In this document: positions 2,667 through 39,419 of the stretch, one piece after another | How the letters are laid out: each line of letters starts with the position of its first letter | How positions within the stretch are numbered: the first letter of the stretch is position 1 | NCBI GenBank assembly: GCA_037783545.1 | Contig: JBBELK010000329.1 | Span: 248,001-312,000, forward strand | DNA from: Henricia sp. BOLD:AAB3569 | Lineage: Eukaryota > Echinodermata > Asteroidea > Spinulosida > Echinasteridae | Length of the DNA stretch: 64,000 bases | Reading direction: 5' to 3' | Program-made: the position numbers and the translations under genes | Notes under the pieces: model-generated | What the model was told of the DNA's origin: nothing | Database searches by the model: none | Seen by the model: only the letters and a program-made list of their open reading frames with translations

Positions 2667-2669
2667 CTA
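2592..2669 (+). repeat. 78-bp direct repeat, copy 2, abutting the array
   Basis: This matches 2250-2327. Its last three bases (CTA) overlap the first bases of array unit 1, so the array boundary falls exactly at the end of this repeat. That suggests the duplicated sequence took part in the rearrangement that joined the array to its left flank. Confidence 0.9.
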
Positions 2670-2776
2670 GACCACACTCGTGCAGCTCGCAACTCTCTCT
2701 AATATAGAAGTATTTGAGGGCATACAAGATATTCACGAGCTCGGCGCACGGGTCTCTGCCTATTTACACAGTCGAG

Positions 2777-2848
2777 TCCCATATGGTCTAGTGGTTAGGA
2801 TCCGGCGCTCTCACCGCCGTGGCCCGGGTTCAATTCCCGGTGTGGGAA
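2777..2848 (+). tRNA. tRNA-Glu-CTC: tRNA-Glu (CTC), unit 1
   Basis: All cloverleaf parts can be placed. The 7-bp acceptor stem TCCCATA/TGTGGGA has one G-T pair, followed by discriminator A. The D arm is GTCT-AGTGGTTA-GGAT. The 5-bp anticodon stem CGGCG/CGCCG closes the loop CTCTCAC with anticodon CTC at positions 34-36. The variable loop is TGGC, and the T arm is CCGGG-TTCAATT-CCCGG. The length is 72 nt, as usual for eukaryotic tRNA-Glu, and the body closely follows the vertebrate tRNA-Glu-CTC pattern. The A box (TGGTCTAGTGG) and B box (GGTTCAATTCC) are intact. There is no intron and no encoded CCA; a normal eukaryotic end is added after transcription. This is the consensus form of the array. 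Confidence 0.97.
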
Positions 2849-2941
2849 GTCGTTGATCAGCAGCAGCAAAGATTCCTCTGCAAGCTACTGGCAAAACACT
2901 GCGAGGAAACGTCTGTCGTGTCTTTGAAAAATTGGTAAATC

Positions 2942-2946
2942 TTTTT
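2942..2946 (+). terminator. candidate Pol III terminator T5, distal (unit 1; repeated in every unit)
   Basis: This is the first run of four or more T after the tRNA, and 93 nt separate it from the tRNA 3' end. Most eukaryotic tRNA genes have such a run within about 10-25 nt. A second T5 lies at 2987-2991. The same spacing holds in the other units apart from unit 17. Confidence 0.5.
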
Positions 2947-3350
2947 GTCTCGCGACAACAACCCAATTACTCATTGAAGTCTCATCTTTTTAGTTCTGTT
3001 CAATTTTATGTGGCTGATCCGTCACTTGTATTCCATAATTTCCACTTGAAACAAAACTACCCCAGCCTGCAGCTGCAAGAGTGAAAATTGCCAAACAGCA
3101 GACCAGCGTCTATTTTGGGAAACGAAAGTCACATACGCTACTGAGCAAACTAGGGCCTCTTTTCCGAGCTAGATAGATTGTTCAAAATGTTTGCGGTTGC
3201 AAGAAAATACCCCACATCACGATGGTGGCCTATTTCTACACTAGACCACACTCGTGCAGCTCGCAACTCTCTCTAATATAGAAGTATTTGAGGGCATACA
3301 AGATATTCACGAGCTCGGCGCACGGGTCTCTGCCTATTTACACAGTCGAG

Positions 3351-3422
3351 TCCCATATGGTCTAGTGGTTAGGATCCGGCGCTCTCACCGCCGTGGCCCG
3401 GGTTCAATTCCCGGTGTGGGAA
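3351..3422 (+). tRNA. tRNA-Glu-CTC: tRNA-Glu (CTC), unit 2
   Basis: Consensus tRNA. The spacer has a private A-to-C change (ATTGGTCAAT) just before the distal T5 run. Confidence 0.96.
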
Positions 3423-3924
3423 GTCGTTGATCAGCAGCAGCAAAGATTCCTCTGCAAGCTACTGGCAAAACACTGCGAGGAAACGTCTGTCGTGTCTTTG
3501 AAAAATTGGTCAATCTTTTTGTCTCGCGACAACAACCCAATTACTCATTGAAGTCTCATCTTTTTAGTTCTGTTCAATTTTATGTGGCTGATCCGTCACT
3601 TGTATTCCATAATTTCCACTTGAAACAAAACTACCCCAGCCTGCAGCTGCAAGAGTGAAAATTGCCAAACAGCAGACCAGCGTCTATTTTGGGAAACGAA
3701 AGTCACATACGCTACTGAGCAAACTAGGGCCTCTTTTCCGAGCTAGATAGATTGTTCAAAATGTTTGCGGTTGCAAGAAAATACCCCACATCACGATGGT
3801 GGCCTATTTCTACACTAGACCACACTCGTGCAGCTCGCAACTCTCTCTAATATAGAAGTATTTGAGGGCATACAAGATATTCACGAGCTCGGCGCACGGG
3901 TCTCTGCCTATTTACACAGTCGAG

Positions 3925-3996
3925 TCCCATATGGTCTAGTGGTTAGGATCCGGCGCTCTCACCGCCGTGGCCCGGGTTCAATTCCCGGTGTGGGAA
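3925..3996 (+). tRNA. tRNA-Glu-CTC: tRNA-Glu (CTC), unit 3
   Basis: Consensus tRNA. The downstream spacer carries the CAGTAG variant (consensus CAGCAG). Confidence 0.96.
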
Positions 3997-4498
3997 GTCG
4001 TTGATCAGCAGCAGCAAAGATTCCTCTGCAAGCTACTGGCAAAACACTGCGAGGAAACGTCTGTCGTGTCTTTGAAAAATTGGTAAATCTTTTTGTCTCG
4101 CGACAACAACCCAATTACTCATTGAAGTCTCATCTTTTTAGTTCTGTTCAATTTTATGTGGCTGATCCGTCACTTGTATTCCATAATTTCCACTTGAAAC
4201 AAAACTACCCCAGCCTGCAGCTGCAAGAGTGAAAATTGCCAAACAGTAGACCAGCGTCTATTTTGGGAAACGAAAGTCACATACGCTACTGAGCAAACTA
4301 GGGCCTCTTTTCCGAGCTAGATAGATTGTTCAAAATGTTTGCGGTTGCAAGAAAATACCCCACATCACGATGGTGGCCTATTTCTACACTAGACCACACT
4401 CGTGCAGCTCGCAACTCTCTCTAATATAGAAGTATTTGAGGGCATACAAGATATTCACGAGCTCGGCGCACGGGTCTCTGCCTATTTACACAGTCGAG

Positions 4499-4570
4499 TC
4501 CCATATGGTCTAGTGGTTAGGATCCGGCGCTCTCACCGCCGTGGCCCGGGTTCAATTCCCGGTGTGGGAA
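4499..4570 (+). tRNA. tRNA-Glu-CTC: tRNA-Glu (CTC), unit 4
   Basis: Consensus tRNA and consensus spacer. Confidence 0.96.
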
Positions 4571-5072
4571 GTCGTTGATCAGCAGCAGCAAAGATTCCTC
4601 TGCAAGCTACTGGCAAAACACTGCGAGGAAACGTCTGTCGTGTCTTTGAAAAATTGGTAAATCTTTTTGTCTCGCGACAACAACCCAATTACTCATTGAA
4701 GTCTCATCTTTTTAGTTCTGTTCAATTTTATGTGGCTGATCCGTCACTTGTATTCCATAATTTCCACTTGAAACAAAACTACCCCAGCCTGCAGCTGCAA
4801 GAGTGAAAATTGCCAAACAGCAGACCAGCGTCTATTTTGGGAAACGAAAGTCACATACGCTACTGAGCAAACTAGGGCCTCTTTTCCGAGCTAGATAGAT
4901 TGTTCAAAATGTTTGCGGTTGCAAGAAAATACCCCACATCACGATGGTGGCCTATTTCTACACTAGACCACACTCGTGCAGCTCGCAACTCTCTCTAATA
5001 TAGAAGTATTTGAGGGCATACAAGATATTCACGAGCTCGGCGCACGGGTCTCTGCCTATTTACACAGTCGAG

Positions 5073-5144
5073 TCCCATATGGTCTAGTGGTTATGATCCG
5101 GCGCTCTCACCGCCGTGGCCCGGGTTCAATTCCCGGTGTGGGAA
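5073..5144 (+). tRNA. tRNA-Glu-CTC: tRNA-Glu (CTC), unit 5, D-stem variant
   Basis: G22 is T (TTATGATCC instead of TTAGGATCC), turning the T13-G22 wobble pair of the D stem into T-T. The spacer has GAAAAAAAAC in place of GAAACAAAAC, the same pair of variants as unit 10. The gene may still function but is weakened. Confidence 0.9.
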
Positions 5145-5646
5145 GTCGTTGATCAGCAGCAGCAAAGATTCCTCTGCAAGCTACTGGCAAAACACTGCGA
5201 GGAAACGTCTGTCGTGTCTTTGAAAAATTGGTAAATCTTTTTGTCTCGCGACAACAACCCAATTACTCATTGAAGTCTCATCTTTTTAGTTCTGTTCAAT
5301 TTTATGTGGCTGATCCGTCACTTGTATTCCATAATTTCCACTTGAAAAAAAACTACCCCAGCCTGCAGCTGCAAGAGTGAAAATTGCCAAACAGCAGACC
5401 AGCGTCTATTTTGGGAAACGAAAGTCACATACGCTACTGAGCAAACTAGGGCCTCTTTTCCGAGCTAGATAGATTGTTCAAAATGTTTGCGGTTGCAAGA
5501 AAATACCCCACATCACGATGGTGGCCTATTTCTACACTAGACCACACTCGTGCAGCTCGCAACTCTCTCTAATATAGAAGTATTTGAGGGCATACAAGAT
5601 ATTCACGAGCTCGGCGCACGGGTCTCTGCCTATTTACACAGTCGAG

Positions 5647-5718
5647 TCCCATATGGTCTAGTGGTTAGGATCCGGCGCTCTCACCGCCGTGGCCCGGGTT
5701 CAATTCCCGGTGTGGGAA
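5647..5718 (+). tRNA. tRNA-Glu-CTC: tRNA-Glu (CTC), unit 6
   Basis: Consensus tRNA and spacer. Confidence 0.96.
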
Positions 5719-6220
5719 GTCGTTGATCAGCAGCAGCAAAGATTCCTCTGCAAGCTACTGGCAAAACACTGCGAGGAAACGTCTGTCGTGTCTTTGAAAA
5801 ATTGGTAAATCTTTTTGTCTCGCGACAACAACCCAATTACTCATTGAAGTCTCATCTTTTTAGTTCTGTTCAATTTTATGTGGCTGATCCGTCACTTGTA
5901 TTCCATAATTTCCACTTGAAACAAAACTACCCCAGCCTGCAGCTGCAAGAGTGAAAATTGCCAAACAGCAGACCAGCGTCTATTTTGGGAAACGAAAGTC
6001 ACATACGCTACTGAGCAAACTAGGGCCTCTTTTCCGAGCTAGATAGATTGTTCAAAATGTTTGCGGTTGCAAGAAAATACCCCACATCACGATGGTGGCC
6101 TATTTCTACACTAGACCACACTCGTGCAGCTCGCAACTCTCTCTAATATAGAAGTATTTGAGGGCATACAAGATATTCACGAGCTCGGCGCACGGGTCTC
6201 TGCCTATTTACACAGTCGAG

Positions 6221-6292
6221 TCCCATATGGTCTAGTGGTTAGGATCCGGCGCTCTCACCGCCGTGGCCCGGGTTCAATTCCCGGTGTGGGAA
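6221..6292 (+). tRNA. tRNA-Glu-CTC: tRNA-Glu (CTC), unit 7
   Basis: Consensus tRNA. The spacer has CAGTAG and the 3-bp TAG insertion near the unit end (GGCTAGCTAT), making the unit 577 bp. Confidence 0.96.
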
Positions 6293-6797
6293 GTCGTTGA
6301 TCAGCAGCAGCAAAGATTCCTCTGCAAGCTACTGGCAAAACACTGCGAGGAAACGTCTGTCGTGTCTTTGAAAAATTGGTAAATCTTTTTGTCTCGCGAC
6401 AACAACCCAATTACTCATTGAAGTCTCATCTTTTTAGTTCTGTTCAATTTTATGTGGCTGATCCGTCACTTGTATTCCATAATTTCCACTTGAAACAAAA
6501 CTACCCCAGCCTGCAGCTGCAAGAGTGAAAATTGCCAAACAGTAGACCAGCGTCTATTTTGGGAAACGAAAGTCACATACGCTACTGAGCAAACTAGGGC
6601 CTCTTTTCCGAGCTAGATAGATTGTTCAAAATGTTTGCGGTTGCAAGAAAATACCCCACATCACGATGGTGGCTAGCTATTTCTACACTAGACCACACTC
6701 GTGCAGCTCGCAACTCTCTCTAATATAGAAGTATTTGAGGGCATACAAGATATTCACGAGCTCGGCGCACGGGTCTCTGCCTATTTACACAGTCGAG

Positions 6798-6869
6798 TCC
6801 CATATGGTCTAGTGGTTATGATCCGGCGCTCTCACCGCCGTGGCCCGGGTTCAATTCCCGGTGTGGGAA
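6798..6869 (+). tRNA. tRNA-Glu-CTC: tRNA-Glu (CTC), unit 8, D-stem variant
   Basis: G22-to-T D-stem variant. The trailer has GATTCTTCTGC, and the spacer contains the 62-bp duplication at 7127-7250, giving a 636-bp unit. Confidence 0.9.
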
Positions 6870-7126
6870 GTCGTTGATCAGCAGCAGCAAAGATTCTTCT
6901 GCAAGCTACTGGCAAAACACTGCGAGGAAACGTCTGTCGTGTCTTTGAAAAATTGGTAAATCTTTTTGTCTCGCGACAACAACCCAATTACTCATTGAAG
7001 TCTCATCTTTTTAGTTCTGTTCAATTTTATGTGGCTGATCCGTCACTTGTATTCCATAATTTCCACTTGAAACAAAACTACCCCAGCCTGCAGCTGCAAG
7101 AGTGAAAATTGCCAAACAGCAGACCA

Positions 7127-7250
7127 GCGTCTATTTTGGGAAACGAAAGTCACATACGCTACTGAGCAAACTAGGGCCTCTTTTCCGAGCGTCTATTTTG
7201 GGAAACGAAAGTCACATACGCTACTGAGCAAACTAGGGCCTCTTTTCCGA
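7127..7250 (+). repeat. 62-bp tandem duplication inside unit 8
   Basis: Bases 7127-7188 repeat at once as 7189-7250, starting GCGTCTATTTTGGG. It is the only unit with this and probably arose by slippage between GAGC and CAGC edges. It makes a natural marker for this unit. Confidence 0.95.
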
Positions 7251-7433
7251 GCTAGATAGATTGTTCAAAATGTTTGCGGTTGCAAGAAAATACCCCACAT
7301 CACGATGGTGGCCTATTTCTACACTAGACCACACTCGTGCAGCTCGCAACTCTCTCTAATATAGAAGTATTTGAGGGCATACAAGATATTCACGAGCTCG
7401 GCGCACGGGTCTCTGCCTATTTACACAGTCGAG

Positions 7434-7505
7434 TCCCATATGGTCTAGTGGTTAGGATCCGGCGCTCTCACCGCCGTGGCCCGGGTTCAATTCCCGGTGT
7501 GGGAA
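7434..7505 (+). tRNA. tRNA-Glu-CTC: tRNA-Glu (CTC), unit 9
   Basis: Consensus tRNA and spacer. Confidence 0.96.
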
Positions 7506-8007
7506 GTCGTTGATCAGCAGCAGCAAAGATTCCTCTGCAAGCTACTGGCAAAACACTGCGAGGAAACGTCTGTCGTGTCTTTGAAAAATTGGTAAATCTT
7601 TTTGTCTCGCGACAACAACCCAATTACTCATTGAAGTCTCATCTTTTTAGTTCTGTTCAATTTTATGTGGCTGATCCGTCACTTGTATTCCATAATTTCC
7701 ACTTGAAACAAAACTACCCCAGCCTGCAGCTGCAAGAGTGAAAATTGCCAAACAGCAGACCAGCGTCTATTTTGGGAAACGAAAGTCACATACGCTACTG
7801 AGCAAACTAGGGCCTCTTTTCCGAGCTAGATAGATTGTTCAAAATGTTTGCGGTTGCAAGAAAATACCCCACATCACGATGGTGGCCTATTTCTACACTA
7901 GACCACACTCGTGCAGCTCGCAACTCTCTCTAATATAGAAGTATTTGAGGGCATACAAGATATTCACGAGCTCGGCGCACGGGTCTCTGCCTATTTACAC
8001 AGTCGAG

Positions 8008-8079
8008 TCCCATATGGTCTAGTGGTTATGATCCGGCGCTCTCACCGCCGTGGCCCGGGTTCAATTCCCGGTGTGGGAA
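8008..8079 (+). tRNA. tRNA-Glu-CTC: tRNA-Glu (CTC), unit 10, D-stem variant
   Basis: G22-to-T variant with the GAAAAAAAAC spacer change; it looks like a duplicate of unit 5. Confidence 0.9.
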
Positions 8080-8581
8080 GTCGTTGATCAGCAGCAGCAA
8101 AGATTCCTCTGCAAGCTACTGGCAAAACACTGCGAGGAAACGTCTGTCGTGTCTTTGAAAAATTGGTAAATCTTTTTGTCTCGCGACAACAACCCAATTA
8201 CTCATTGAAGTCTCATCTTTTTAGTTCTGTTCAATTTTATGTGGCTGATCCGTCACTTGTATTCCATAATTTCCACTTGAAAAAAAACTACCCCAGCCTG
8301 CAGCTGCAAGAGTGAAAATTGCCAAACAGCAGACCAGCGTCTATTTTGGGAAACGAAAGTCACATACGCTACTGAGCAAACTAGGGCCTCTTTTCCGAGC
8401 TAGATAGATTGTTCAAAATGTTTGCGGTTGCAAGAAAATACCCCACATCACGATGGTGGCCTATTTCTACACTAGACCACACTCGTGCAGCTCGCAACTC
8501 TCTCTAATATAGAAGTATTTGAGGGCATACAAGATATTCACGAGCTCGGCGCACGGGTCTCTGCCTATTTACACAGTCGAG

Positions 8582-8653
8582 TCCCATATGGTCTAGTGGT
8601 TAGGATCCGGCGCTCTCACCGCCGTGGCCCGGGTTCAATTCCCGGTGTGGGAA
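8582..8653 (+). tRNA. tRNA-Glu-CTC: tRNA-Glu (CTC), unit 11
   Basis: Consensus tRNA and spacer. Confidence 0.96.
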
Positions 8654-9155
8654 GTCGTTGATCAGCAGCAGCAAAGATTCCTCTGCAAGCTACTGGCAAA
8701 ACACTGCGAGGAAACGTCTGTCGTGTCTTTGAAAAATTGGTAAATCTTTTTGTCTCGCGACAACAACCCAATTACTCATTGAAGTCTCATCTTTTTAGTT
8801 CTGTTCAATTTTATGTGGCTGATCCGTCACTTGTATTCCATAATTTCCACTTGAAACAAAACTACCCCAGCCTGCAGCTGCAAGAGTGAAAATTGCCAAA
8901 CAGCAGACCAGCGTCTATTTTGGGAAACGAAAGTCACATACGCTACTGAGCAAACTAGGGCCTCTTTTCCGAGCTAGATAGATTGTTCAAAATGTTTGCG
9001 GTTGCAAGAAAATACCCCACATCACGATGGTGGCCTATTTCTACACTAGACCACACTCGTGCAGCTCGCAACTCTCTCTAATATAGAAGTATTTGAGGGC
9101 ATACAAGATATTCACGAGCTCGGCGCACGGGTCTCTGCCTATTTACACAGTCGAG

Positions 9156-9227
9156 TCCCATATGGTCTAGTGGTTAGGATCCGGCGCTCTCACCGCCGTG
9201 GCCCGGGTTCAATTCCCGGTGTGGGAA
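9156..9227 (+). tRNA. tRNA-Glu-CTC: tRNA-Glu (CTC), unit 12
   Basis: Consensus tRNA; CAGTAG spacer variant, five units after unit 7. Confidence 0.96.
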
Positions 9228-9729
9228 GTCGTTGATCAGCAGCAGCAAAGATTCCTCTGCAAGCTACTGGCAAAACACTGCGAGGAAACGTCTGTCGTGT
9301 CTTTGAAAAATTGGTAAATCTTTTTGTCTCGCGACAACAACCCAATTACTCATTGAAGTCTCATCTTTTTAGTTCTGTTCAATTTTATGTGGCTGATCCG
9401 TCACTTGTATTCCATAATTTCCACTTGAAACAAAACTACCCCAGCCTGCAGCTGCAAGAGTGAAAATTGCCAAACAGTAGACCAGCGTCTATTTTGGGAA
9501 ACGAAAGTCACATACGCTACTGAGCAAACTAGGGCCTCTTTTCCGAGCTAGATAGATTGTTCAAAATGTTTGCGGTTGCAAGAAAATACCCCACATCACG
9601 ATGGTGGCCTATTTCTACACTAGACCACACTCGTGCAGCTCGCAACTCTCTCTAATATAGAAGTATTTGAGGGCATACAAGATATTCACGAGCTCGGCGC
9701 ACGGGTCTCTGCCTATTTACACAGTCGAG

Positions 9730-9801
9730 TCCCATATGGTCTAGTGGTTAGGATCCGGCGCTCTCACCGCCGTGGCCCGGGTTCAATTCCCGGTGTGGGA
9801 A
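9730..9801 (+). tRNA. tRNA-Glu-CTC: tRNA-Glu (CTC), unit 13
   Basis: Consensus tRNA and spacer. Confidence 0.96.
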
Positions 9802-10303
9802 GTCGTTGATCAGCAGCAGCAAAGATTCCTCTGCAAGCTACTGGCAAAACACTGCGAGGAAACGTCTGTCGTGTCTTTGAAAAATTGGTAAATCTTTTTG
9901 TCTCGCGACAACAACCCAATTACTCATTGAAGTCTCATCTTTTTAGTTCTGTTCAATTTTATGTGGCTGATCCGTCACTTGTATTCCATAATTTCCACTT
10001 GAAACAAAACTACCCCAGCCTGCAGCTGCAAGAGTGAAAATTGCCAAACAGCAGACCAGCGTCTATTTTGGGAAACGAAAGTCACATACGCTACTGAGCA
10101 AACTAGGGCCTCTTTTCCGAGCTAGATAGATTGTTCAAAATGTTTGCGGTTGCAAGAAAATACCCCACATCACGATGGTGGCCTATTTCTACACTAGACC
10201 ACACTCGTGCAGCTCGCAACTCTCTCTAATATAGAAGTATTTGAGGGCATACAAGATATTCACGAGCTCGGCGCACGGGTCTCTGCCTATTTACACAGTC
10301 GAG

Positions 10304-10375
10304 TCCCATATGGTCTAGTGGTTAGGATCCGGCGCTCTCACCGCCGTGGCCCGGGTTCAATTCCCGGTGTGGGAA
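10304..10375 (+). tRNA. tRNA-Glu-CTC: tRNA-Glu (CTC), unit 14
   Basis: Consensus tRNA; spacer variant CAGAAG, shared only with unit 18. Confidence 0.96.
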
Positions 10376-10877
10376 GTCGTTGATCAGCAGCAGCAAAGAT
10401 TCCTCTGCAAGCTACTGGCAAAACACTGCGAGGAAACGTCTGTCGTGTCTTTGAAAAATTGGTAAATCTTTTTGTCTCGCGACAACAACCCAATTACTCA
10501 TTGAAGTCTCATCTTTTTAGTTCTGTTCAATTTTATGTGGCTGATCCGTCACTTGTATTCCATAATTTCCACTTGAAACAAAACTACCCCAGCCTGCAGC
10601 TGCAAGAGTGAAAATTGCCAAACAGAAGACCAGCGTCTATTTTGGGAAACGAAAGTCACATACGCTACTGAGCAAACTAGGGCCTCTTTTCCGAGCTAGA
10701 TAGATTGTTCAAAATGTTTGCGGTTGCAAGAAAATACCCCACATCACGATGGTGGCCTATTTCTACACTAGACCACACTCGTGCAGCTCGCAACTCTCTC
10801 TAATATAGAAGTATTTGAGGGCATACAAGATATTCACGAGCTCGGCGCACGGGTCTCTGCCTATTTACACAGTCGAG

Positions 10878-10949
10878 TCCCATATGGTCTAGTGGTTAGG
10901 ATCCGGCGCTCTCACCGCCGTGGCCCGGGTTCAATTCCCGGTGTGGGAA
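10878..10949 (+). tRNA. tRNA-Glu-CTC: tRNA-Glu (CTC), unit 15
   Basis: Consensus tRNA; spacer has CCATGATTT and the TAG insertion (577 bp), as in unit 19. Confidence 0.96.
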
Positions 10950-11454
10950 GTCGTTGATCAGCAGCAGCAAAGATTCCTCTGCAAGCTACTGGCAAAACAC
11001 TGCGAGGAAACGTCTGTCGTGTCTTTGAAAAATTGGTAAATCTTTTTGTCTCGCGACAACAACCCAATTACTCATTGAAGTCTCATCTTTTTAGTTCTGT
11101 TCAATTTTATGTGGCTGATCCGTCACTTGTATTCCATGATTTCCACTTGAAACAAAACTACCCCAGCCTGCAGCTGCAAGAGTGAAAATTGCCAAACAGC
11201 AGACCAGCGTCTATTTTGGGAAACGAAAGTCACATACGCTACTGAGCAAACTAGGGCCTCTTTTCCGAGCTAGATAGATTGTTCAAAATGTTTGCGGTTG
11301 CAAGAAAATACCCCACATCACGATGGTGGCTAGCTATTTCTACACTAGACCACACTCGTGCAGCTCGCAACTCTCTCTAATATAGAAGTATTTGAGGGCA
11401 TACAAGATATTCACGAGCTCGGCGCACGGGTCTCTGCCTATTTACACAGTCGAG

Positions 11455-11526
11455 TCCCATATGGTCTAGTGGTTAGGATCCGGCGCTCTCACCGCCGTGG
11501 CCCGGGTTCAATTCCCGGTGTGGGAA
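11455..11526 (+). tRNA. tRNA-Glu-CTC: tRNA-Glu (CTC), unit 16
   Basis: Consensus tRNA; TAG insertion at the unit end (577 bp). Confidence 0.96.
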
Positions 11527-12031
11527 GTCGTTGATCAGCAGCAGCAAAGATTCCTCTGCAAGCTACTGGCAAAACACTGCGAGGAAACGTCTGTCGTGTC
11601 TTTGAAAAATTGGTAAATCTTTTTGTCTCGCGACAACAACCCAATTACTCATTGAAGTCTCATCTTTTTAGTTCTGTTCAATTTTATGTGGCTGATCCGT
11701 CACTTGTATTCCATAATTTCCACTTGAAACAAAACTACCCCAGCCTGCAGCTGCAAGAGTGAAAATTGCCAAACAGCAGACCAGCGTCTATTTTGGGAAA
11801 CGAAAGTCACATACGCTACTGAGCAAACTAGGGCCTCTTTTCCGAGCTAGATAGATTGTTCAAAATGTTTGCGGTTGCAAGAAAATACCCCACATCACGA
11901 TGGTGGCTAGCTATTTCTACACTAGACCACACTCGTGCAGCTCGCAACTCTCTCTAATATAGAAGTATTTGAGGGCATACAAGATATTCACGAGCTCGGC
12001 GCACGGGTCTCTGCCTATTTACACAGTCGAG

Positions 12032-12103
12032 TCCCATATGGTCTAGTGGTTATGATCCGGCGCTCTCACCGCCGTGGCCCGGGTTCAATTCCCGGTGTGG
12101 GAA
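12032..12103 (+). tRNA. tRNA-Glu-CTC: tRNA-Glu (CTC), unit 17, D-stem variant with near terminator
   Basis: G22-to-T variant. The trailer reads GATTCTTTTGC, two changes from GATTCCTCTGC, which creates a T4 run 27 nt after the tRNA. The unit end has GGCCTACTT instead of GGCCTATTT. Confidence 0.9.
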
Positions 12104-12130
12104 GTCGTTGATCAGCAGCAGCAAAGATTC

Positions 12131-12134
12131 TTTT
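12131..12134 (+). terminator. private near Pol III terminator (T4) of unit 17
   Basis: TTTT lies 27 nt beyond the tRNA 3' end, at a normal distance for Pol III termination. It is found only in this unit, and units 8 and 20 show the half-way form CTTCTG. Confidence 0.5.
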
Positions 12135-12605
12135 GCAAGCTACTGGCAAAACACTGCGAGGAAACGTCTGTCGTGTCTTTGAAAAATTGGTAAATCTTTT
12201 TGTCTCGCGACAACAACCCAATTACTCATTGAAGTCTCATCTTTTTAGTTCTGTTCAATTTTATGTGGCTGATCCGTCACTTGTATTCCATAATTTCCAC
12301 TTGAAACAAAACTACCCCAGCCTGCAGCTGCAAGAGTGAAAATTGCCAAACAGCAGACCAGCGTCTATTTTGGGAAACGAAAGTCACATACGCTACTGAG
12401 CAAACTAGGGCCTCTTTTCCGAGCTAGATAGATTGTTCAAAATGTTTGCGGTTGCAAGAAAATACCCCACATCACGATGGTGGCCTACTTCTACACTAGA
12501 CCACACTCGTGCAGCTCGCAACTCTCTCTAATATAGAAGTATTTGAGGGCATACAAGATATTCACGAGCTCGGCGCACGGGTCTCTGCCTATTTACACAG
12601 TCGAG

Positions 12606-12677
12606 TCCCATATGGTCTAGTGGTTAGGATCCGGCGCTCTCACCGCCGTGGCCCGGGTTCAATTCCCGGTGTGGGAA
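12606..12677 (+). tRNA. tRNA-Glu-CTC: tRNA-Glu (CTC), unit 18
   Basis: Consensus tRNA; CAGAAG spacer variant, four units after unit 14. Confidence 0.96.
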
Positions 12678-13179: not shown

Positions 13180-13251
13180 TCCCATATGGTCTAGTGGTTA
13201 GGATCCGGCGCTCTCACCGCCGTGGCCCGGGTTCAATTCCCGGTGTGGGAA
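13180..13251 (+). tRNA. tRNA-Glu-CTC: tRNA-Glu (CTC), unit 19
   Basis: Consensus tRNA; spacer has a private CAATTTGATG, CCATGATTT and the TAG insertion (577 bp). Confidence 0.96.
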
Positions 13252-26958: not shown

Positions 26959-27030
26959 TCCCATATGGTCTAGTGGTTAGGATCCGGCGCTCTCACCGCC
27001 GTGGCCCGGGTTCAATTCCCGGTGTGGGAA
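26959..27030 (+). tRNA. tRNA-Glu-CTC: tRNA-Glu (CTC), unit 43
   Basis: Consensus tRNA and spacer. Confidence 0.96.
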
Positions 27031-27532
27031 GTCGTTGATCAGCAGCAGCAAAGATTCCTCTGCAAGCTACTGGCAAAACACTGCGAGGAAACGTCTGTCG
27101 TGTCTTTGAAAAATTGGTAAATCTTTTTGTCTCGCGACAACAACCCAATTACTCATTGAAGTCTCATCTTTTTAGTTCTGTTCAATTTTATGTGGCTGAT
27201 CCGTCACTTGTATTCCATAATTTCCACTTGAAACAAAACTACCCCAGCCTGCAGCTGCAAGAGTGAAAATTGCCAAACAGCAGACCAGCGTCTATTTTGG
27301 GAAACGAAAGTCACATACGCTACTGAGCAAACTAGGGCCTCTTTTCCGAGCTAGATAGATTGTTCAAAATGTTTGCGGTTGCAAGAAAATACCCCACATC
27401 ACGATGGTGGCCTATTTCTACACTAGACCACACTCGTGCAGCTCGCAACTCTCTCTAATATAGAAGTATTTGAGGGCATACAAGATATTCACGAGCTCGG
27501 CGCACGGGTCTCTGCCTATTTACACAGTCGAG

Positions 27533-27604
27533 TCCCATATGGTCTAGTGGTTAGGATCCGGCGCTCTCACCGCCGTGGCCCGGGTTCAATTCCCGGTGTG
27601 GGAA
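27533..27604 (+). tRNA. tRNA-Glu-CTC: tRNA-Glu (CTC), unit 44
   Basis: Consensus tRNA; CAGTAG marker, partner of unit 33. Confidence 0.96.
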
Positions 27605-28106
27605 GTCGTTGATCAGCAGCAGCAAAGATTCCTCTGCAAGCTACTGGCAAAACACTGCGAGGAAACGTCTGTCGTGTCTTTGAAAAATTGGTAAATCTTT
27701 TTGTCTCGCGACAACAACCCAATTACTCATTGAAGTCTCATCTTTTTAGTTCTGTTCAATTTTATGTGGCTGATCCGTCACTTGTATTCCATAATTTCCA
27801 CTTGAAACAAAACTACCCCAGCCTGCAGCTGCAAGAGTGAAAATTGCCAAACAGTAGACCAGCGTCTATTTTGGGAAACGAAAGTCACATACGCTACTGA
27901 GCAAACTAGGGCCTCTTTTCCGAGCTAGATAGATTGTTCAAAATGTTTGCGGTTGCAAGAAAATACCCCACATCACGATGGTGGCCTATTTCTACACTAG
28001 ACCACACTCGTGCAGCTCGCAACTCTCTCTAATATAGAAGTATTTGAGGGCATACAAGATATTCACGAGCTCGGCGCACGGGTCTCTGCCTATTTACACA
28101 GTCGAG

Positions 28107-28178
28107 TCCCATATGGTCTAGTGGTTAGGATCCGGCGCTCTCACCGCCGTGGCCCGGGTTCAATTCCCGGTGTGGGAA
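28107..28178 (+). tRNA. tRNA-Glu-CTC: tRNA-Glu (CTC), unit 45
   Basis: Consensus tRNA and spacer. Confidence 0.96.
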
Positions 28179-28680
28179 GTCGTTGATCAGCAGCAGCAAA
28201 GATTCCTCTGCAAGCTACTGGCAAAACACTGCGAGGAAACGTCTGTCGTGTCTTTGAAAAATTGGTAAATCTTTTTGTCTCGCGACAACAACCCAATTAC
28301 TCATTGAAGTCTCATCTTTTTAGTTCTGTTCAATTTTATGTGGCTGATCCGTCACTTGTATTCCATAATTTCCACTTGAAACAAAACTACCCCAGCCTGC
28401 AGCTGCAAGAGTGAAAATTGCCAAACAGCAGACCAGCGTCTATTTTGGGAAACGAAAGTCACATACGCTACTGAGCAAACTAGGGCCTCTTTTCCGAGCT
28501 AGATAGATTGTTCAAAATGTTTGCGGTTGCAAGAAAATACCCCACATCACGATGGTGGCCTATTTCTACACTAGACCACACTCGTGCAGCTCGCAACTCT
28601 CTCTAATATAGAAGTATTTGAGGGCATACAAGATATTCACGAGCTCGGCGCACGGGTCTCTGCCTATTTACACAGTCGAG

Positions 28681-28752
28681 TCCCATATGGTCTAGTGGTT
28701 AGGATCCGGCGCTCTCACCGCCGTGGCCCGGGTTCAATTCCCGGTGTGGGAA
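28681..28752 (+). tRNA. tRNA-Glu-CTC: tRNA-Glu (CTC), unit 46
   Basis: Consensus tRNA and spacer. Confidence 0.96.
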
Positions 28753-29254
28753 GTCGTTGATCAGCAGCAGCAAAGATTCCTCTGCAAGCTACTGGCAAAA
28801 CACTGCGAGGAAACGTCTGTCGTGTCTTTGAAAAATTGGTAAATCTTTTTGTCTCGCGACAACAACCCAATTACTCATTGAAGTCTCATCTTTTTAGTTC
28901 TGTTCAATTTTATGTGGCTGATCCGTCACTTGTATTCCATAATTTCCACTTGAAACAAAACTACCCCAGCCTGCAGCTGCAAGAGTGAAAATTGCCAAAC
29001 AGCAGACCAGCGTCTATTTTGGGAAACGAAAGTCACATACGCTACTGAGCAAACTAGGGCCTCTTTTCCGAGCTAGATAGATTGTTCAAAATGTTTGCGG
29101 TTGCAAGAAAATACCCCACATCACGATGGTGGCCTATTTCTACACTAGACCACACTCGTGCAGCTCGCAACTCTCTCTAATATAGAAGTATTTGAGGGCA
29201 TACAAGATATTCACGAGCTCGGCGCACGGGTCTCTGCCTATTTACACAGTCGAG

Positions 29255-29326
29255 TCCCATATGGTCTAGTGGTTAGGATCCGGCGCTCTCACCGCCGTGG
29301 CCCGGGTTCAATTCCCGGTGTGGGAA
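29255..29326 (+). tRNA. tRNA-Glu-CTC: tRNA-Glu (CTC), unit 47
   Basis: Consensus tRNA; CAGTAG marker, partner of unit 36. Confidence 0.96.
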
Positions 29327-29828
29327 GTCGTTGATCAGCAGCAGCAAAGATTCCTCTGCAAGCTACTGGCAAAACACTGCGAGGAAACGTCTGTCGTGTC
29401 TTTGAAAAATTGGTAAATCTTTTTGTCTCGCGACAACAACCCAATTACTCATTGAAGTCTCATCTTTTTAGTTCTGTTCAATTTTATGTGGCTGATCCGT
29501 CACTTGTATTCCATAATTTCCACTTGAAACAAAACTACCCCAGCCTGCAGCTGCAAGAGTGAAAATTGCCAAACAGTAGACCAGCGTCTATTTTGGGAAA
29601 CGAAAGTCACATACGCTACTGAGCAAACTAGGGCCTCTTTTCCGAGCTAGATAGATTGTTCAAAATGTTTGCGGTTGCAAGAAAATACCCCACATCACGA
29701 TGGTGGCCTATTTCTACACTAGACCACACTCGTGCAGCTCGCAACTCTCTCTAATATAGAAGTATTTGAGGGCATACAAGATATTCACGAGCTCGGCGCA
29801 CGGGTCTCTGCCTATTTACACAGTCGAG

Positions 29829-29900
29829 TCCCATATGGTCTAGTGGTTAGGATCCGGCGCTCTCACCGCCGTGGCCCGGGTTCAATTCCCGGTGTGGGAA
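29829..29900 (+). tRNA. tRNA-Glu-CTC: tRNA-Glu (CTC), unit 48
   Basis: Consensus tRNA and spacer. Confidence 0.96.
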
Positions 29901-30402
29901 GTCGTTGATCAGCAGCAGCAAAGATTCCTCTGCAAGCTACTGGCAAAACACTGCGAGGAAACGTCTGTCGTGTCTTTGAAAAATTGGTAAATCTTTTTGT
30001 CTCGCGACAACAACCCAATTACTCATTGAAGTCTCATCTTTTTAGTTCTGTTCAATTTTATGTGGCTGATCCGTCACTTGTATTCCATAATTTCCACTTG
30101 AAACAAAACTACCCCAGCCTGCAGCTGCAAGAGTGAAAATTGCCAAACAGCAGACCAGCGTCTATTTTGGGAAACGAAAGTCACATACGCTACTGAGCAA
30201 ACTAGGGCCTCTTTTCCGAGCTAGATAGATTGTTCAAAATGTTTGCGGTTGCAAGAAAATACCCCACATCACGATGGTGGCCTATTTCTACACTAGACCA
30301 CACTCGTGCAGCTCGCAACTCTCTCTAATATAGAAGTATTTGAGGGCATACAAGATATTCACGAGCTCGGCGCACGGGTCTCTGCCTATTTACACAGTCG
30401 AG

Positions 30403-30474
30403 TCCCATATGGTCTAGTGGTTAGGATCCGGCGCTCTCACCGCCGTGGCCCGGGTTCAATTCCCGGTGTGGGAA
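30403..30474 (+). tRNA. tRNA-Glu-CTC: tRNA-Glu (CTC), unit 49
   Basis: Consensus tRNA and spacer. Confidence 0.96.
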
Positions 30475-30976
30475 GTCGTTGATCAGCAGCAGCAAAGATT
30501 CCTCTGCAAGCTACTGGCAAAACACTGCGAGGAAACGTCTGTCGTGTCTTTGAAAAATTGGTAAATCTTTTTGTCTCGCGACAACAACCCAATTACTCAT
30601 TGAAGTCTCATCTTTTTAGTTCTGTTCAATTTTATGTGGCTGATCCGTCACTTGTATTCCATAATTTCCACTTGAAACAAAACTACCCCAGCCTGCAGCT
30701 GCAAGAGTGAAAATTGCCAAACAGCAGACCAGCGTCTATTTTGGGAAACGAAAGTCACATACGCTACTGAGCAAACTAGGGCCTCTTTTCCGAGCTAGAT
30801 AGATTGTTCAAAATGTTTGCGGTTGCAAGAAAATACCCCACATCACGATGGTGGCCTATTTCTACACTAGACCACACTCGTGCAGCTCGCAACTCTCTCT
30901 AATATAGAAGTATTTGAGGGCATACAAGATATTCACGAGCTCGGCGCACGGGTCTCTGCCTATTTACACAGTCGAG

Positions 30977-31048
30977 TCCCATATGGTCTAGTGGTTAGGA
31001 TCCGGCGCTCTCACCGCCGTGGCCCGGGTTCAATTCCCGGTGTGGGAA
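30977..31048 (+). tRNA. tRNA-Glu-CTC: tRNA-Glu (CTC), unit 50
   Basis: Consensus tRNA; GAACCAAAAC/GCCAGAC markers (partner of unit 39) plus a private GTCTCTCGAC after the T5 run. Confidence 0.96.
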
Positions 31049-31550
31049 GTCGTTGATCAGCAGCAGCAAAGATTCCTCTGCAAGCTACTGGCAAAACACT
31101 GCGAGGAAACGTCTGTCGTGTCTTTGAAAAATTGGTAAATCTTTTTGTCTCTCGACAACAACCCAATTACTCATTGAAGTCTCATCTTTTTAGTTCTGTT
31201 CAATTTTATGTGGCTGATCCGTCACTTGTATTCCATAATTTCCACTTGAACCAAAACTACCCCAGCCTGCAGCTGCAAGAGTGAAAATTGCCAGACAGCA
31301 GACCAGCGTCTATTTTGGGAAACGAAAGTCACATACGCTACTGAGCAAACTAGGGCCTCTTTTCCGAGCTAGATAGATTGTTCAAAATGTTTGCGGTTGC
31401 AAGAAAATACCCCACATCACGATGGTGGCCTATTTCTACACTAGACCACACTCGTGCAGCTCGCAACTCTCTCTAATATAGAAGTATTTGAGGGCATACA
31501 AGATATTCACGAGCTCGGCGCACGGGTCTCTGCCTATTTACACAGTCGAG

Positions 31551-31622
31551 TCCCATATGGTCTAGTGGTTAGGATCCGGCGCTCTCACCGCCGTGGCCCG
31601 GGTTCAATTCCCGGTGTGGGAA
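31551..31622 (+). tRNA. tRNA-Glu-CTC: tRNA-Glu (CTC), unit 51
   Basis: Consensus tRNA; CAGTAG marker, partner of unit 40. Confidence 0.96.
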
Positions 31623-32124
31623 GTCGTTGATCAGCAGCAGCAAAGATTCCTCTGCAAGCTACTGGCAAAACACTGCGAGGAAACGTCTGTCGTGTCTTTG
31701 AAAAATTGGTAAATCTTTTTGTCTCGCGACAACAACCCAATTACTCATTGAAGTCTCATCTTTTTAGTTCTGTTCAATTTTATGTGGCTGATCCGTCACT
31801 TGTATTCCATAATTTCCACTTGAAACAAAACTACCCCAGCCTGCAGCTGCAAGAGTGAAAATTGCCAAACAGTAGACCAGCGTCTATTTTGGGAAACGAA
31901 AGTCACATACGCTACTGAGCAAACTAGGGCCTCTTTTCCGAGCTAGATAGATTGTTCAAAATGTTTGCGGTTGCAAGAAAATACCCCACATCACGATGGT
32001 GGCCTATTTCTACACTAGACCACACTCGTGCAGCTCGCAACTCTCTCTAATATAGAAGTATTTGAGGGCATACAAGATATTCACGAGCTCGGCGCACGGG
32101 TCTCTGCCTATTTACACAGTCGAG

Positions 32125-32196
32125 TCCCATATGGTCTAGTGGTTAGGATCCGGCGCTCTCACCGCCGTGGCCCGGGTTCAATTCCCGGTGTGGGAA
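32125..32196 (+). tRNA. tRNA-Glu-CTC: tRNA-Glu (CTC), unit 52
   Basis: Consensus tRNA and spacer; opens the three-unit rhythm that runs to unit 60. Confidence 0.96.
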
Positions 32197-32698
32197 GTCG
32201 TTGATCAGCAGCAGCAAAGATTCCTCTGCAAGCTACTGGCAAAACACTGCGAGGAAACGTCTGTCGTGTCTTTGAAAAATTGGTAAATCTTTTTGTCTCG
32301 CGACAACAACCCAATTACTCATTGAAGTCTCATCTTTTTAGTTCTGTTCAATTTTATGTGGCTGATCCGTCACTTGTATTCCATAATTTCCACTTGAAAC
32401 AAAACTACCCCAGCCTGCAGCTGCAAGAGTGAAAATTGCCAAACAGCAGACCAGCGTCTATTTTGGGAAACGAAAGTCACATACGCTACTGAGCAAACTA
32501 GGGCCTCTTTTCCGAGCTAGATAGATTGTTCAAAATGTTTGCGGTTGCAAGAAAATACCCCACATCACGATGGTGGCCTATTTCTACACTAGACCACACT
32601 CGTGCAGCTCGCAACTCTCTCTAATATAGAAGTATTTGAGGGCATACAAGATATTCACGAGCTCGGCGCACGGGTCTCTGCCTATTTACACAGTCGAG

Positions 32699-32770
32699 TC
32701 CCATATGGTCTAGTGGTTAGGATCCGGCGCTCTCACCGCCGTGGCCCGGGTTCAATTCCCGGTGTGGGAA
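32699..32770 (+). tRNA. tRNA-Glu-CTC: tRNA-Glu (CTC), unit 53
   Basis: Consensus tRNA and spacer. Confidence 0.96.
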
Positions 32771-33272
32771 GTCGTTGATCAGCAGCAGCAAAGATTCCTC
32801 TGCAAGCTACTGGCAAAACACTGCGAGGAAACGTCTGTCGTGTCTTTGAAAAATTGGTAAATCTTTTTGTCTCGCGACAACAACCCAATTACTCATTGAA
32901 GTCTCATCTTTTTAGTTCTGTTCAATTTTATGTGGCTGATCCGTCACTTGTATTCCATAATTTCCACTTGAAACAAAACTACCCCAGCCTGCAGCTGCAA
33001 GAGTGAAAATTGCCAAACAGCAGACCAGCGTCTATTTTGGGAAACGAAAGTCACATACGCTACTGAGCAAACTAGGGCCTCTTTTCCGAGCTAGATAGAT
33101 TGTTCAAAATGTTTGCGGTTGCAAGAAAATACCCCACATCACGATGGTGGCCTATTTCTACACTAGACCACACTCGTGCAGCTCGCAACTCTCTCTAATA
33201 TAGAAGTATTTGAGGGCATACAAGATATTCACGAGCTCGGCGCACGGGTCTCTGCCTATTTACACAGTCGAG

Positions 33273-33344
33273 TCCCATATGGTCTAGTGGTTAGGATCCG
33301 GCGCTCTCACCGCCGTGGCCCGGGTTCAATTCCCGGTGTGGGAA
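33273..33344 (+). tRNA. tRNA-Glu-CTC: tRNA-Glu (CTC), unit 54
   Basis: Consensus tRNA; GAACCAAAAC/GCCAGAC markers. Confidence 0.96.
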
Positions 33345-33846
33345 GTCGTTGATCAGCAGCAGCAAAGATTCCTCTGCAAGCTACTGGCAAAACACTGCGA
33401 GGAAACGTCTGTCGTGTCTTTGAAAAATTGGTAAATCTTTTTGTCTCGCGACAACAACCCAATTACTCATTGAAGTCTCATCTTTTTAGTTCTGTTCAAT
33501 TTTATGTGGCTGATCCGTCACTTGTATTCCATAATTTCCACTTGAACCAAAACTACCCCAGCCTGCAGCTGCAAGAGTGAAAATTGCCAGACAGCAGACC
33601 AGCGTCTATTTTGGGAAACGAAAGTCACATACGCTACTGAGCAAACTAGGGCCTCTTTTCCGAGCTAGATAGATTGTTCAAAATGTTTGCGGTTGCAAGA
33701 AAATACCCCACATCACGATGGTGGCCTATTTCTACACTAGACCACACTCGTGCAGCTCGCAACTCTCTCTAATATAGAAGTATTTGAGGGCATACAAGAT
33801 ATTCACGAGCTCGGCGCACGGGTCTCTGCCTATTTACACAGTCGAG

Positions 33847-33918
33847 TCCCATATGGTCTAGTGGTTAGGATCCGGCGCTCTCACCGCCGTGGCCCGGGTT
33901 CAATTCCCGGTGTGGGAA
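33847..33918 (+). tRNA. tRNA-Glu-CTC: tRNA-Glu (CTC), unit 55
   Basis: Consensus tRNA and spacer. Confidence 0.96.
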
Positions 33919-34420
33919 GTCGTTGATCAGCAGCAGCAAAGATTCCTCTGCAAGCTACTGGCAAAACACTGCGAGGAAACGTCTGTCGTGTCTTTGAAAA
34001 ATTGGTAAATCTTTTTGTCTCGCGACAACAACCCAATTACTCATTGAAGTCTCATCTTTTTAGTTCTGTTCAATTTTATGTGGCTGATCCGTCACTTGTA
34101 TTCCATAATTTCCACTTGAAACAAAACTACCCCAGCCTGCAGCTGCAAGAGTGAAAATTGCCAAACAGCAGACCAGCGTCTATTTTGGGAAACGAAAGTC
34201 ACATACGCTACTGAGCAAACTAGGGCCTCTTTTCCGAGCTAGATAGATTGTTCAAAATGTTTGCGGTTGCAAGAAAATACCCCACATCACGATGGTGGCC
34301 TATTTCTACACTAGACCACACTCGTGCAGCTCGCAACTCTCTCTAATATAGAAGTATTTGAGGGCATACAAGATATTCACGAGCTCGGCGCACGGGTCTC
34401 TGCCTATTTACACAGTCGAG

Positions 34421-34492
34421 TCCCATATGGTCTAGTGGTTAGGATCCGGCGCTCTCACCGCCGTGGCCCGGGTTCAATTCCCGGTGTGGGAA
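34421..34492 (+). tRNA. tRNA-Glu-CTC: tRNA-Glu (CTC), unit 56
   Basis: Consensus tRNA and spacer. Confidence 0.96.
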
Positions 34493-34994
34493 GTCGTTGA
34501 TCAGCAGCAGCAAAGATTCCTCTGCAAGCTACTGGCAAAACACTGCGAGGAAACGTCTGTCGTGTCTTTGAAAAATTGGTAAATCTTTTTGTCTCGCGAC
34601 AACAACCCAATTACTCATTGAAGTCTCATCTTTTTAGTTCTGTTCAATTTTATGTGGCTGATCCGTCACTTGTATTCCATAATTTCCACTTGAAACAAAA
34701 CTACCCCAGCCTGCAGCTGCAAGAGTGAAAATTGCCAAACAGCAGACCAGCGTCTATTTTGGGAAACGAAAGTCACATACGCTACTGAGCAAACTAGGGC
34801 CTCTTTTCCGAGCTAGATAGATTGTTCAAAATGTTTGCGGTTGCAAGAAAATACCCCACATCACGATGGTGGCCTATTTCTACACTAGACCACACTCGTG
34901 CAGCTCGCAACTCTCTCTAATATAGAAGTATTTGAGGGCATACAAGATATTCACGAGCTCGGCGCACGGGTCTCTGCCTATTTACACAGTCGAG

Positions 34995-35066
34995 TCCCAT
35001 ATGGTCTAGTGGTTAGGATCCGGCGCTCTCACCGCCGTGGCCCGGGTTCAATTCCCGGTGTGGGAA
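34995..35066 (+). tRNA. tRNA-Glu-CTC: tRNA-Glu (CTC), unit 57
   Basis: Consensus tRNA; GAACCAAAAC/GCCAGAC markers, three units after unit 54. Confidence 0.96.
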
Positions 35067-35568
35067 GTCGTTGATCAGCAGCAGCAAAGATTCCTCTGCA
35101 AGCTACTGGCAAAACACTGCGAGGAAACGTCTGTCGTGTCTTTGAAAAATTGGTAAATCTTTTTGTCTCGCGACAACAACCCAATTACTCATTGAAGTCT
35201 CATCTTTTTAGTTCTGTTCAATTTTATGTGGCTGATCCGTCACTTGTATTCCATAATTTCCACTTGAACCAAAACTACCCCAGCCTGCAGCTGCAAGAGT
35301 GAAAATTGCCAGACAGCAGACCAGCGTCTATTTTGGGAAACGAAAGTCACATACGCTACTGAGCAAACTAGGGCCTCTTTTCCGAGCTAGATAGATTGTT
35401 CAAAATGTTTGCGGTTGCAAGAAAATACCCCACATCACGATGGTGGCCTATTTCTACACTAGACCACACTCGTGCAGCTCGCAACTCTCTCTAATATAGA
35501 AGTATTTGAGGGCATACAAGATATTCACGAGCTCGGCGCACGGGTCTCTGCCTATTTACACAGTCGAG

Positions 35569-35640
35569 TCCCATATGGTCTAGTGGTTAGGATCCGGCGC
35601 TCTCACCGCCGTGGCCCGGGTTCAATTCCCGGTGTGGGAA
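35569..35640 (+). tRNA. tRNA-Glu-CTC: tRNA-Glu (CTC), unit 58
   Basis: Consensus tRNA and spacer. Confidence 0.96.
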
Positions 35641-36142
35641 GTCGTTGATCAGCAGCAGCAAAGATTCCTCTGCAAGCTACTGGCAAAACACTGCGAGGAA
35701 ACGTCTGTCGTGTCTTTGAAAAATTGGTAAATCTTTTTGTCTCGCGACAACAACCCAATTACTCATTGAAGTCTCATCTTTTTAGTTCTGTTCAATTTTA
35801 TGTGGCTGATCCGTCACTTGTATTCCATAATTTCCACTTGAAACAAAACTACCCCAGCCTGCAGCTGCAAGAGTGAAAATTGCCAAACAGCAGACCAGCG
35901 TCTATTTTGGGAAACGAAAGTCACATACGCTACTGAGCAAACTAGGGCCTCTTTTCCGAGCTAGATAGATTGTTCAAAATGTTTGCGGTTGCAAGAAAAT
36001 ACCCCACATCACGATGGTGGCCTATTTCTACACTAGACCACACTCGTGCAGCTCGCAACTCTCTCTAATATAGAAGTATTTGAGGGCATACAAGATATTC
36101 ACGAGCTCGGCGCACGGGTCTCTGCCTATTTACACAGTCGAG

Positions 36143-36214
36143 TCCCATATGGTCTAGTGGTTAGGATCCGGCGCTCTCACCGCCGTGGCCCGGGTTCAAT
36201 TCCCGGTGTGGGAA
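36143..36214 (+). tRNA. tRNA-Glu-CTC: tRNA-Glu (CTC), unit 59
   Basis: Consensus tRNA and spacer. Confidence 0.96.
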
Positions 36215-36716
36215 GTCGTTGATCAGCAGCAGCAAAGATTCCTCTGCAAGCTACTGGCAAAACACTGCGAGGAAACGTCTGTCGTGTCTTTGAAAAATTG
36301 GTAAATCTTTTTGTCTCGCGACAACAACCCAATTACTCATTGAAGTCTCATCTTTTTAGTTCTGTTCAATTTTATGTGGCTGATCCGTCACTTGTATTCC
36401 ATAATTTCCACTTGAAACAAAACTACCCCAGCCTGCAGCTGCAAGAGTGAAAATTGCCAAACAGCAGACCAGCGTCTATTTTGGGAAACGAAAGTCACAT
36501 ACGCTACTGAGCAAACTAGGGCCTCTTTTCCGAGCTAGATAGATTGTTCAAAATGTTTGCGGTTGCAAGAAAATACCCCACATCACGATGGTGGCCTATT
36601 TCTACACTAGACCACACTCGTGCAGCTCGCAACTCTCTCTAATATAGAAGTATTTGAGGGCATACAAGATATTCACGAGCTCGGCGCACGGGTCTCTGCC
36701 TATTTACACAGTCGAG

Positions 36717-36788
36717 TCCCATATGGTCTAGTGGTTAGGATCCGGCGCTCTCACCGCCGTGGCCCGGGTTCAATTCCCGGTGTGGGAA
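36717..36788 (+). tRNA. tRNA-Glu-CTC: tRNA-Glu (CTC), unit 60
   Basis: Consensus tRNA; CAGTAG marker. Last tRNA of the array. Confidence 0.96.
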
Positions 36789-37180
36789 GTCGTTGATCAG
36801 CAGCAGCAAAGATTCCTCTGCAAGCTACTGGCAAAACACTGCGAGGAAACGTCTGTCGTGTCTTTGAAAAATTGGTAAATCTTTTTGTCTCGCGACAACA
36901 ACCCAATTACTCATTGAAGTCTCATCTTTTTAGTTCTGTTCAATTTTATGTGGCTGATCCGTCACTTGTATTCCATAATTTCCACTTGAAACAAAACTAC
37001 CCCAGCCTGCAGCTGCAAGAGTGAAAATTGCCAAACAGTAGACCAGCGTCTATTTTGGGAAACGAAAGTCACATACGCTACTGAGCAAACTAGGGCCTCT
37101 TTTCCGAGCTAGATAGATTGTTCAAAATGTTTGCGGTTGCAAGAAAATACCCCACATCACGATGGTGGCCTATTTCTACA

Positions 37181-39406: not shown

Positions 39407-39419
39407 GAAATTTATATTT

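Follow-up and report, generated by a model that had tools for sequence, protein, structure and literature searches.

The 64,000-bp window analysed here (C329:248001-312000 of the 740.7-Mb Henricia sp. assembly, C329 being contig JBBELK010000329.1) carries the right-hand block of a long tandem array of glutamate transfer RNA genes with the anticodon CTC, tRNA-Glu(CTC). The array is best explained as a homogenised macrosatellite, which would have been born from a tRNA-Glu(CTC) gene lacking a near terminator and enlarged by unequal exchange, with most of its copies likely being passengers; we give this reading a probability of about 0.55. It would show a likely route by which one tRNA gene becomes a satellite of several hundred copies.

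ARAGORN and the Rfam family RF00005 each identify 60 tRNA genes in the window, all on the forward strand, and ARAGORN reads the anticodon CTC in 60/60, which bears out the 60 same-strand tRNA-Glu(CTC) genes proposed by the initial annotation. The RF00005 scores are 59.4 bits for 55 genes and 58.0 for the other 5, the gathering cut-off being 29. The 72-nt tRNA sequence is identical in 55/60 copies, with a G22T substitution in the remaining 5, and the commonest version is fully paired in all four stems and has both U33 and the anticodon CTC. All 60 window units, arranged head to tail, thus carry a complete nuclear-type tRNA. From one tRNA start to the next, the units measure 574 bp in 54/59 cases, 577 bp in 4, and 636 bp in 1, in agreement with the 574-bp repeat and near-identical spacers described initially. 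As many as 28/59 units are identical to each other, the mean pairwise difference among the 59 units is 0.26% (substitutions only), and haplotypes recur at a lag of three units (an observed value reached by 8/5000 shuffles), giving the combination of homogenised tandem units and higher-order structure expected of a macrosatellite. From unit position 526 (window ~37242), the last unit becomes divergent, and homology then stops; a degenerate last unit is typical of old satellite edges. An Rfam scan of 36600-38000 with E values up to 5 yielded, beyond the tRNA, only four sub-threshold matches and no second RNA gene.

The initial annotation had placed the array at 2667..37180. The block itself is real, with unit similarity spanning C329:250666-285276, but beyond an insertion the array goes on to the left, outside the window. 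Exact copies of a 35-nt core from the array-type tRNA number 561 in the genome (541 forward and 20 reverse), compared with 0 copies of the same pattern read backwards, so the copy number is far beyond chance and the window holds a small part of it. The core positions are known for the first 100 of the 561 places. On C329, array units were found at the sampled points 85-93, 108-112, 158-163, 168, 231, and 238-240 kb, in addition to the window, and the window block is likely the right end of an array sampled from ~85 to 285 kb, with continuity likely between the samples. If continuous, the C329 array comprises 189.7 kb without the insertion, or ~330 units. Its true left end lies near C329:85 kb, where two units of opposite orientation precede the forward array.

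Two further contigs carry the array. C326 has array genes at 1712-1774 kb among the matches listed and solid array across the 60 kb read at 1845-1905 kb, with no array genes in the stretches at 1935-1945 kb and 1965-2005 kb. The left flanks of C329 and C326 are 99.55% identical over 2674 bp and the right-flank pieces ~98%, so the two arrays likely represent two haplotypes of one locus; this presumed allelism is based on the flanks, the array lengths being ~189.7 kb without the insertion on C329 and 192.7-222.7 kb on C326 if both are continuous. The third contig, C1004, has 17 tRNA-Glu(CTC) genes. The 20 reverse cores would be explained by 16 on C1004, 2 at C329:85 kb, and 2 at C326:1712 kb.

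The units are near-identical, with a total length beyond most reads, and the copy number might largely be an assembly artefact, particularly as the two contigs with matching flanks are perhaps two haplotypes counted twice. Within C326:1845001-1905000 (L009-L014), moreover, a ~20-kb segment recurs 31,964 bp away, almost 100% identical, which is either a recent duplication or an assembly artefact; as a duplication, it would add to the signs of satellite-type homogenisation, as does the degenerate right edge. However, the array is present on three contigs, the unit variants differ between them, and the 60 kb of C326 read lack a 10,424-bp insertion that is present on C329, making an artefact of this extent very improbable.

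The 3' side of the array genes differs from that of a canonical tRNA gene. The number of T residues sufficient to terminate RNA polymerase III (Pol III) is four in humans and five and six in two yeasts (PMC5356446). The first TTTT behind the window genes is located at +94 in 59/60 cases and at +28 in one. On C326 it is found at +94 in 97/104 genes, +83 in 4, and +91 in 2, the one remaining gene having none within 300 nt, as a deletion in its unit removed the T-run; on C1004 it is found at +94 or +93 in 17/17 and in stretch L050 at +91 to +94 in 7/7. Pooled over these 188 array genes (60 from the window, 104 from C326, 17 from C1004, and 7 from L050), 186 have their first TTTT between +83 and +94, and, with the T-run close behind the gene missing, the array copies are not classed as canonical working tRNA genes. 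The tRNA had been called canonical in the initial annotation, which holds for all stems, U33, and the anticodon, but not for the 3' side, where the commonest unit has no TTTT within 93 nt of its tRNA. Four inverted genes at the left edges, outside the 188, have TTTT at +94 in one case, at +73 in one, and none in 110 nt in two, behind which the array sequence ends after ~14 nt. Among 8336 flanking stretches of 93 nt, 48% lack TTTT, so that in this respect the array trailer resembles DNA not under selection, and its predicted folding is no stronger than that of swap shuffles (z about +0.5).

The tRNA is also no more conserved than the spacer around it. Constraint was assessed in 186 full units (58 from the window, 102 from C326, 16 from C1004, and 10 others), with partly matched units and units split by insertions being dropped. 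Variable sites amount to 10/72 in the tRNA versus 58/502 in the spacer (Fisher P=0.56), the per-site diversity is 0.0045 in the tRNA and 0.0037 in the spacer, and in 76% of the 72-nt spacer windows the number of variable sites does not exceed that of the tRNA. The varying tRNA sites include T8, G10, G15, G22, and T33; U33C, which is expected to impair decoding, is present in 9 of the 186 units. A silenced satellite born from a tRNA gene had been among the options named initially, and it fits best with regard to origin and the lack of detectable constraint; for the silenced state, the CpG observed/expected ratio (0.86 in the array, 0.92 in the left flank, and 0.97 in the right flank) is a weak hint only. 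A source of tRNA fragments, another of the options named initially, gained no support here.

Three dispersed Glu-CTC genes on contigs C93, C132, and C298 have the exact canonical core, against 561 cores of the array type, and their tRNAs are identical to each other. T-runs follow them at +11, +10, and +12, respectively, and at +8 and +10 behind the two dispersed Glu-TTC genes read. A few dispersed genes with normal terminators likely supply the working tRNA-Glu(CTC); the genome-wide RF00005 search scored 63 of 135,043 candidates, and its tRNA totals are not a census. The initial annotation was to count as refuted if the units were classed as pseudogenes without Pol III occupancy while Glu-CTC was supplied elsewhere. 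Glu-CTC is encoded elsewhere, by these three genes, but the units score as intact tRNAs. A fourth copy called as CTC, on C397 (L040), shares 91% identity and lacks a TTTT over the 110 nt read. By eye, the sequence after this diverged copy resembles a tRNA-type short interspersed nuclear element (SINE).

The array tRNA and the dispersed canonical tRNA differ by a single base, A versus G at standard position 57 (linear 56). This position falls inside the B box, whose consensus permits either purine, and both variants are purines. The founder of the array would thus have derived from a canonical Glu-CTC gene through a G to A change at position 57, in a copy without a nearby Pol III terminator, and would have multiplied by unequal crossing-over and conversion. 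Any transcription of the copies would be initiated by Pol III through the A and B boxes, which are intact, and would proceed as far as the TTTTT at +94; the resulting trailer of ~95 nt would require removal by RNase Z.

The main rival is a working dosage array, in which tRNA-Glu(CTC) would come from hundreds of Pol III units, perhaps mainly in the germline or early embryo, and RNase Z would trim the trailer. It owes this rank to other tRNA arrays of the same genome that have nearer terminators, the genes read there being followed by T-runs at +8 to +33. The Glu-TTC core has 22 exact copies, 18 of which are on C490, many ~714 bp apart; 2 kb of this contig (L055, C490:301-2300) include three Glu(TTC) genes, with T-runs at +14 in 3/3, as well as two tRNAs on the opposite strand, with the calls CCA (Trp) and ACA. 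Tandem Lys(TTT) units of 572-594 bp are found on C109 (L056) and C837 (L057, L058). The C109 units also contain Tyr(GTA), for which ARAGORN gives no call in the two C837 stretches read, and the Tyr gene seems to be decaying there. The T-runs are at +33 in 6/7 Lys genes, +21 in 1/7, and +8 in 2/2 Tyr genes. With Lys/Tyr and Glu-TTC/Trp-like arrays also present, the tandem arrangement of tRNA genes seems to be a broader feature of this genome. A dosage role is further in line with the intact cloverleaf and boxes and with the presence of only three exact-core dispersed Glu-CTC genes; in Arabidopsis, root-tip cells reactivate a tandem tRNA cluster that stays silent in most tissues (PMC12308677). 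On the other hand, the T-run is no nearer than +83 in 187/188 array genes, the tRNA is conserved no better than the spacer, and U33C has spread to 9 units, leaving the dosage array a less probable explanation than the macrosatellite.

Several observations nevertheless weigh against the macrosatellite of passengers. The A and B boxes, compared with the consensus, and the stems are intact in the array tRNA. RNase Z cuts endonucleolytically, and a long trailer is compatible with function. Only three exact-core dispersed Glu-CTC genes look few for a 740-Mb genome, and the nearer T-runs of the other arrays indicate that tRNA genes in arrays may be functional in this genome. The constraint test has low power, since the units were homogenised recently and lack independence, and among the diverged left-edge units, L037 has 0/15 substitutions in the tRNA and L038 2/14. 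Full-length array tRNAs are identical in 161/192 cases, which recent homogenisation can account for. The yardstick for the test, the tRNA-Lys array of the same genome, speaks for the macrosatellite, with 1/72 variable sites in the tRNA versus 57/498 elsewhere (P=0.005; units cut at a 40-nt exact core common to all 7 Lys genes read), although it comprises 4 units with higher divergence, at loci that were found by their high tRNA score.

A more far-reaching proposal, which we regard as speculative and rather doubtful, is that whole isotypes (Glu-CTC, Lys/Tyr, and Glu-TTC/Trp) are kept in short-unit arrays in the manner of Entamoeba. The Glu-CTC array would then be a switchable bulk source of several hundred A57 genes, active during a single stage (oogenesis, for example) and producing 3'-extended precursors, beside three G57 housekeeping genes.

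The intact boxes could also serve a chromatin boundary, another of the options named initially, or an architectural block; what would count is that TFIIIC binds the A and B boxes, irrespective of the tRNA output, as was proposed for the boundary role of the human 1q23.3 tRNA repeat (PMC4041453). However, the tRNA sites vary like the spacer, and the right flank within the window is rich in repeats, none of the open reading frames (ORFs) tested being supported as a gene by Pfam, so that a boundary function would appear improbable. The 8 window ORFs compared with Pfam gave two sub-threshold matches only, the better one being GDSL-like (E 0.11, 13.4 bits, cut-off 32.9).

A tRNA-type promoter within a repeated unit is likewise reminiscent of a mobile element turned tandem array, either a SINE or a Helenus-type long terminal repeat (LTR) element, the LTRs of Helenus being known to carry a tRNA (PMC10886601). 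The array flanks, however, have one other home: outside the three array contigs, the trailer was found once only, on C24, among the candidates scored (27/27 tRNA candidates and 40/943 tRNA-trailer candidates), making either origin very unlikely. The C24 fragment is 130 bp long and 89% identical, with A57 and the anticodon CCC, and the dispersed sequence beside it is separate. The numerous dispersed copies sharing one body and tail that would be expected of a SINE were thus not seen among the 40/943 tRNA-trailer candidates scored. Where a Helenus element would have two LTRs with a primer binding site (PBS) and a polypurine tract between them, the array has one uniform 574-bp unit without alternation of LTR and internal sequence, in which TGG-led stretches are PBS candidates. 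We therefore rejected a Helenus or SINE origin, given the single trailer fragment outside the array contigs among the candidates scored and the uniform unit.

The insertion that splits the array on C329 can be delimited precisely. The array stops at C329:240241 (unit position 467) and restarts at 250666 (unit position 464), and a 4-bp target duplication, ACTA, flanks the insertion at window 2666-2669 and C329:240238-240241. Merging the flanks with a single ACTA restores the unit over 120 bp, so that the leftmost 2665 bp of the window represent the right end of a 10,424-bp insertion. At this right end (window 2250-2669), a 78-bp direct repeat occurs 342 bp apart, which suggests that a short element lies next to, or within, a longer element whose ends are related to its own, and an ORF at window 1-402, within the insertion, has a sub-threshold GDSL/SGNH-like Pfam match. 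The features of the window are listed in the table.

Features of the array block and the adjoining insertion in the window (window coordinates)
Feature	Position	Strand	Basis or remark
Right-hand array block of tRNA-Glu(CTC), made up of a partial unit, 60 tRNA units, and a degenerate last spacer	2666..37276	+	BLAST by unit
60 head-to-tail tRNA-Glu(CTC) genes, 72 nt each	2777..36788	+	ARAGORN, Rfam
Commonest 574-bp unit	2777..3350	+	28/59 units identical
Partial first unit, unit positions 464-574, cut by the insertion	2666..2776	+	100% to unit
G22T unit, 13-22 D-stem pair lost	5073..5144	+	G22T also in genes at 6798, 8008, 12032, 13757
62-bp direct duplication in unit 8 (636-bp unit)	7126..7252	+	
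Diverged right edge of the last unit, then homology ends	37242..37276	+	
Predicted 3' trailer of unit 1	2849..2946	+	TTTTT first at 2942-2946 (+94 to +98)
TTTT at +28 of unit 17, sole window exception to +94	12131..12134	+	From two substitutions
Right end of the 10,424-bp insertion (C329:240242-250665)	1..2665		Array units also to its left
ACTA, 4-bp target-site duplication	2666..2669	+	Right of the two copies flanking the insertion

To the right of the array, window 38550-40893 and 41196-44890 consist of nested, near-perfect inverted repeats of foldback-like appearance, with arms of 379 bp (99%), 189, 181, 154, and 131 bp. Window 45601-64000 is a 9,234-bp tandem duplication with 9163/9166 compared bases identical, each copy holding a 22-bp minisatellite of 12.5 copies. 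Stretch L046 contains, at 5444-8743 on the reverse strand, an uninterrupted ORF of 1098-1099 amino acids of the long interspersed nuclear element type, which has relatives at up to 79% identity; the named relatives, which support an animal host, include Penaeus indicus (77% over 77% of the query), Branchiostoma belcheri (73%), Patiria miniata (62%), and others.

Among animals, long tandem arrays of tRNA genes are known from Xenopus laevis, where the units hold several tRNAs in ~3 kb. Among the matches listed in the open-licence literature, no comparable animal tRNA-Glu array was found, and the main text of a paper on sea cucumber tRNA copy numbers (PMC8580430) has no word beginning with Glu or tandem. 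Identical tandem tRNA genes likewise occur in plants, for which the reported maximum is 26 identical genes per cluster (PMC12652284). In Arabidopsis, the SYY cluster, which has pseudogenes and variable flanking regions (PMC12308677), and the tRNA-Cys cluster, with a single-tRNA unit of 0.4 kb (PMC10701932), are also arrays beside dispersed copies, but they comprise 54 clustered Tyr genes (PMC12308677) and 4 Cys genes (PMC10701932) as described, compared with hundreds here. Entamoeba shares the tandem tRNA units and the presence of several array types per genome, but almost all of its tRNA genes belong to 25 array types, in which short tandem repeats separate the genes (PMC2652664), whereas here at least three array types coexist with dispersed genes.

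The human tRNA macrosatellite at 1q23.3 is, like the array described here, a homogenised nuclear tandem array that includes tRNA-Glu; its units, however, are 7.3 kb long, with five tRNAs of four isotypes and 9-43 units per allele (PMC4041453), as opposed to several hundred 574-bp units with one tRNA. The human array carries no comparable tag, its tRNA-Glu being identical to a copy on chromosome 6 (PMC4041453), whereas the difference between array and dispersed genes at position 57 provides a natural tag by which the use, silencing, or mere tolerance of amplified tRNA genes could be told apart.

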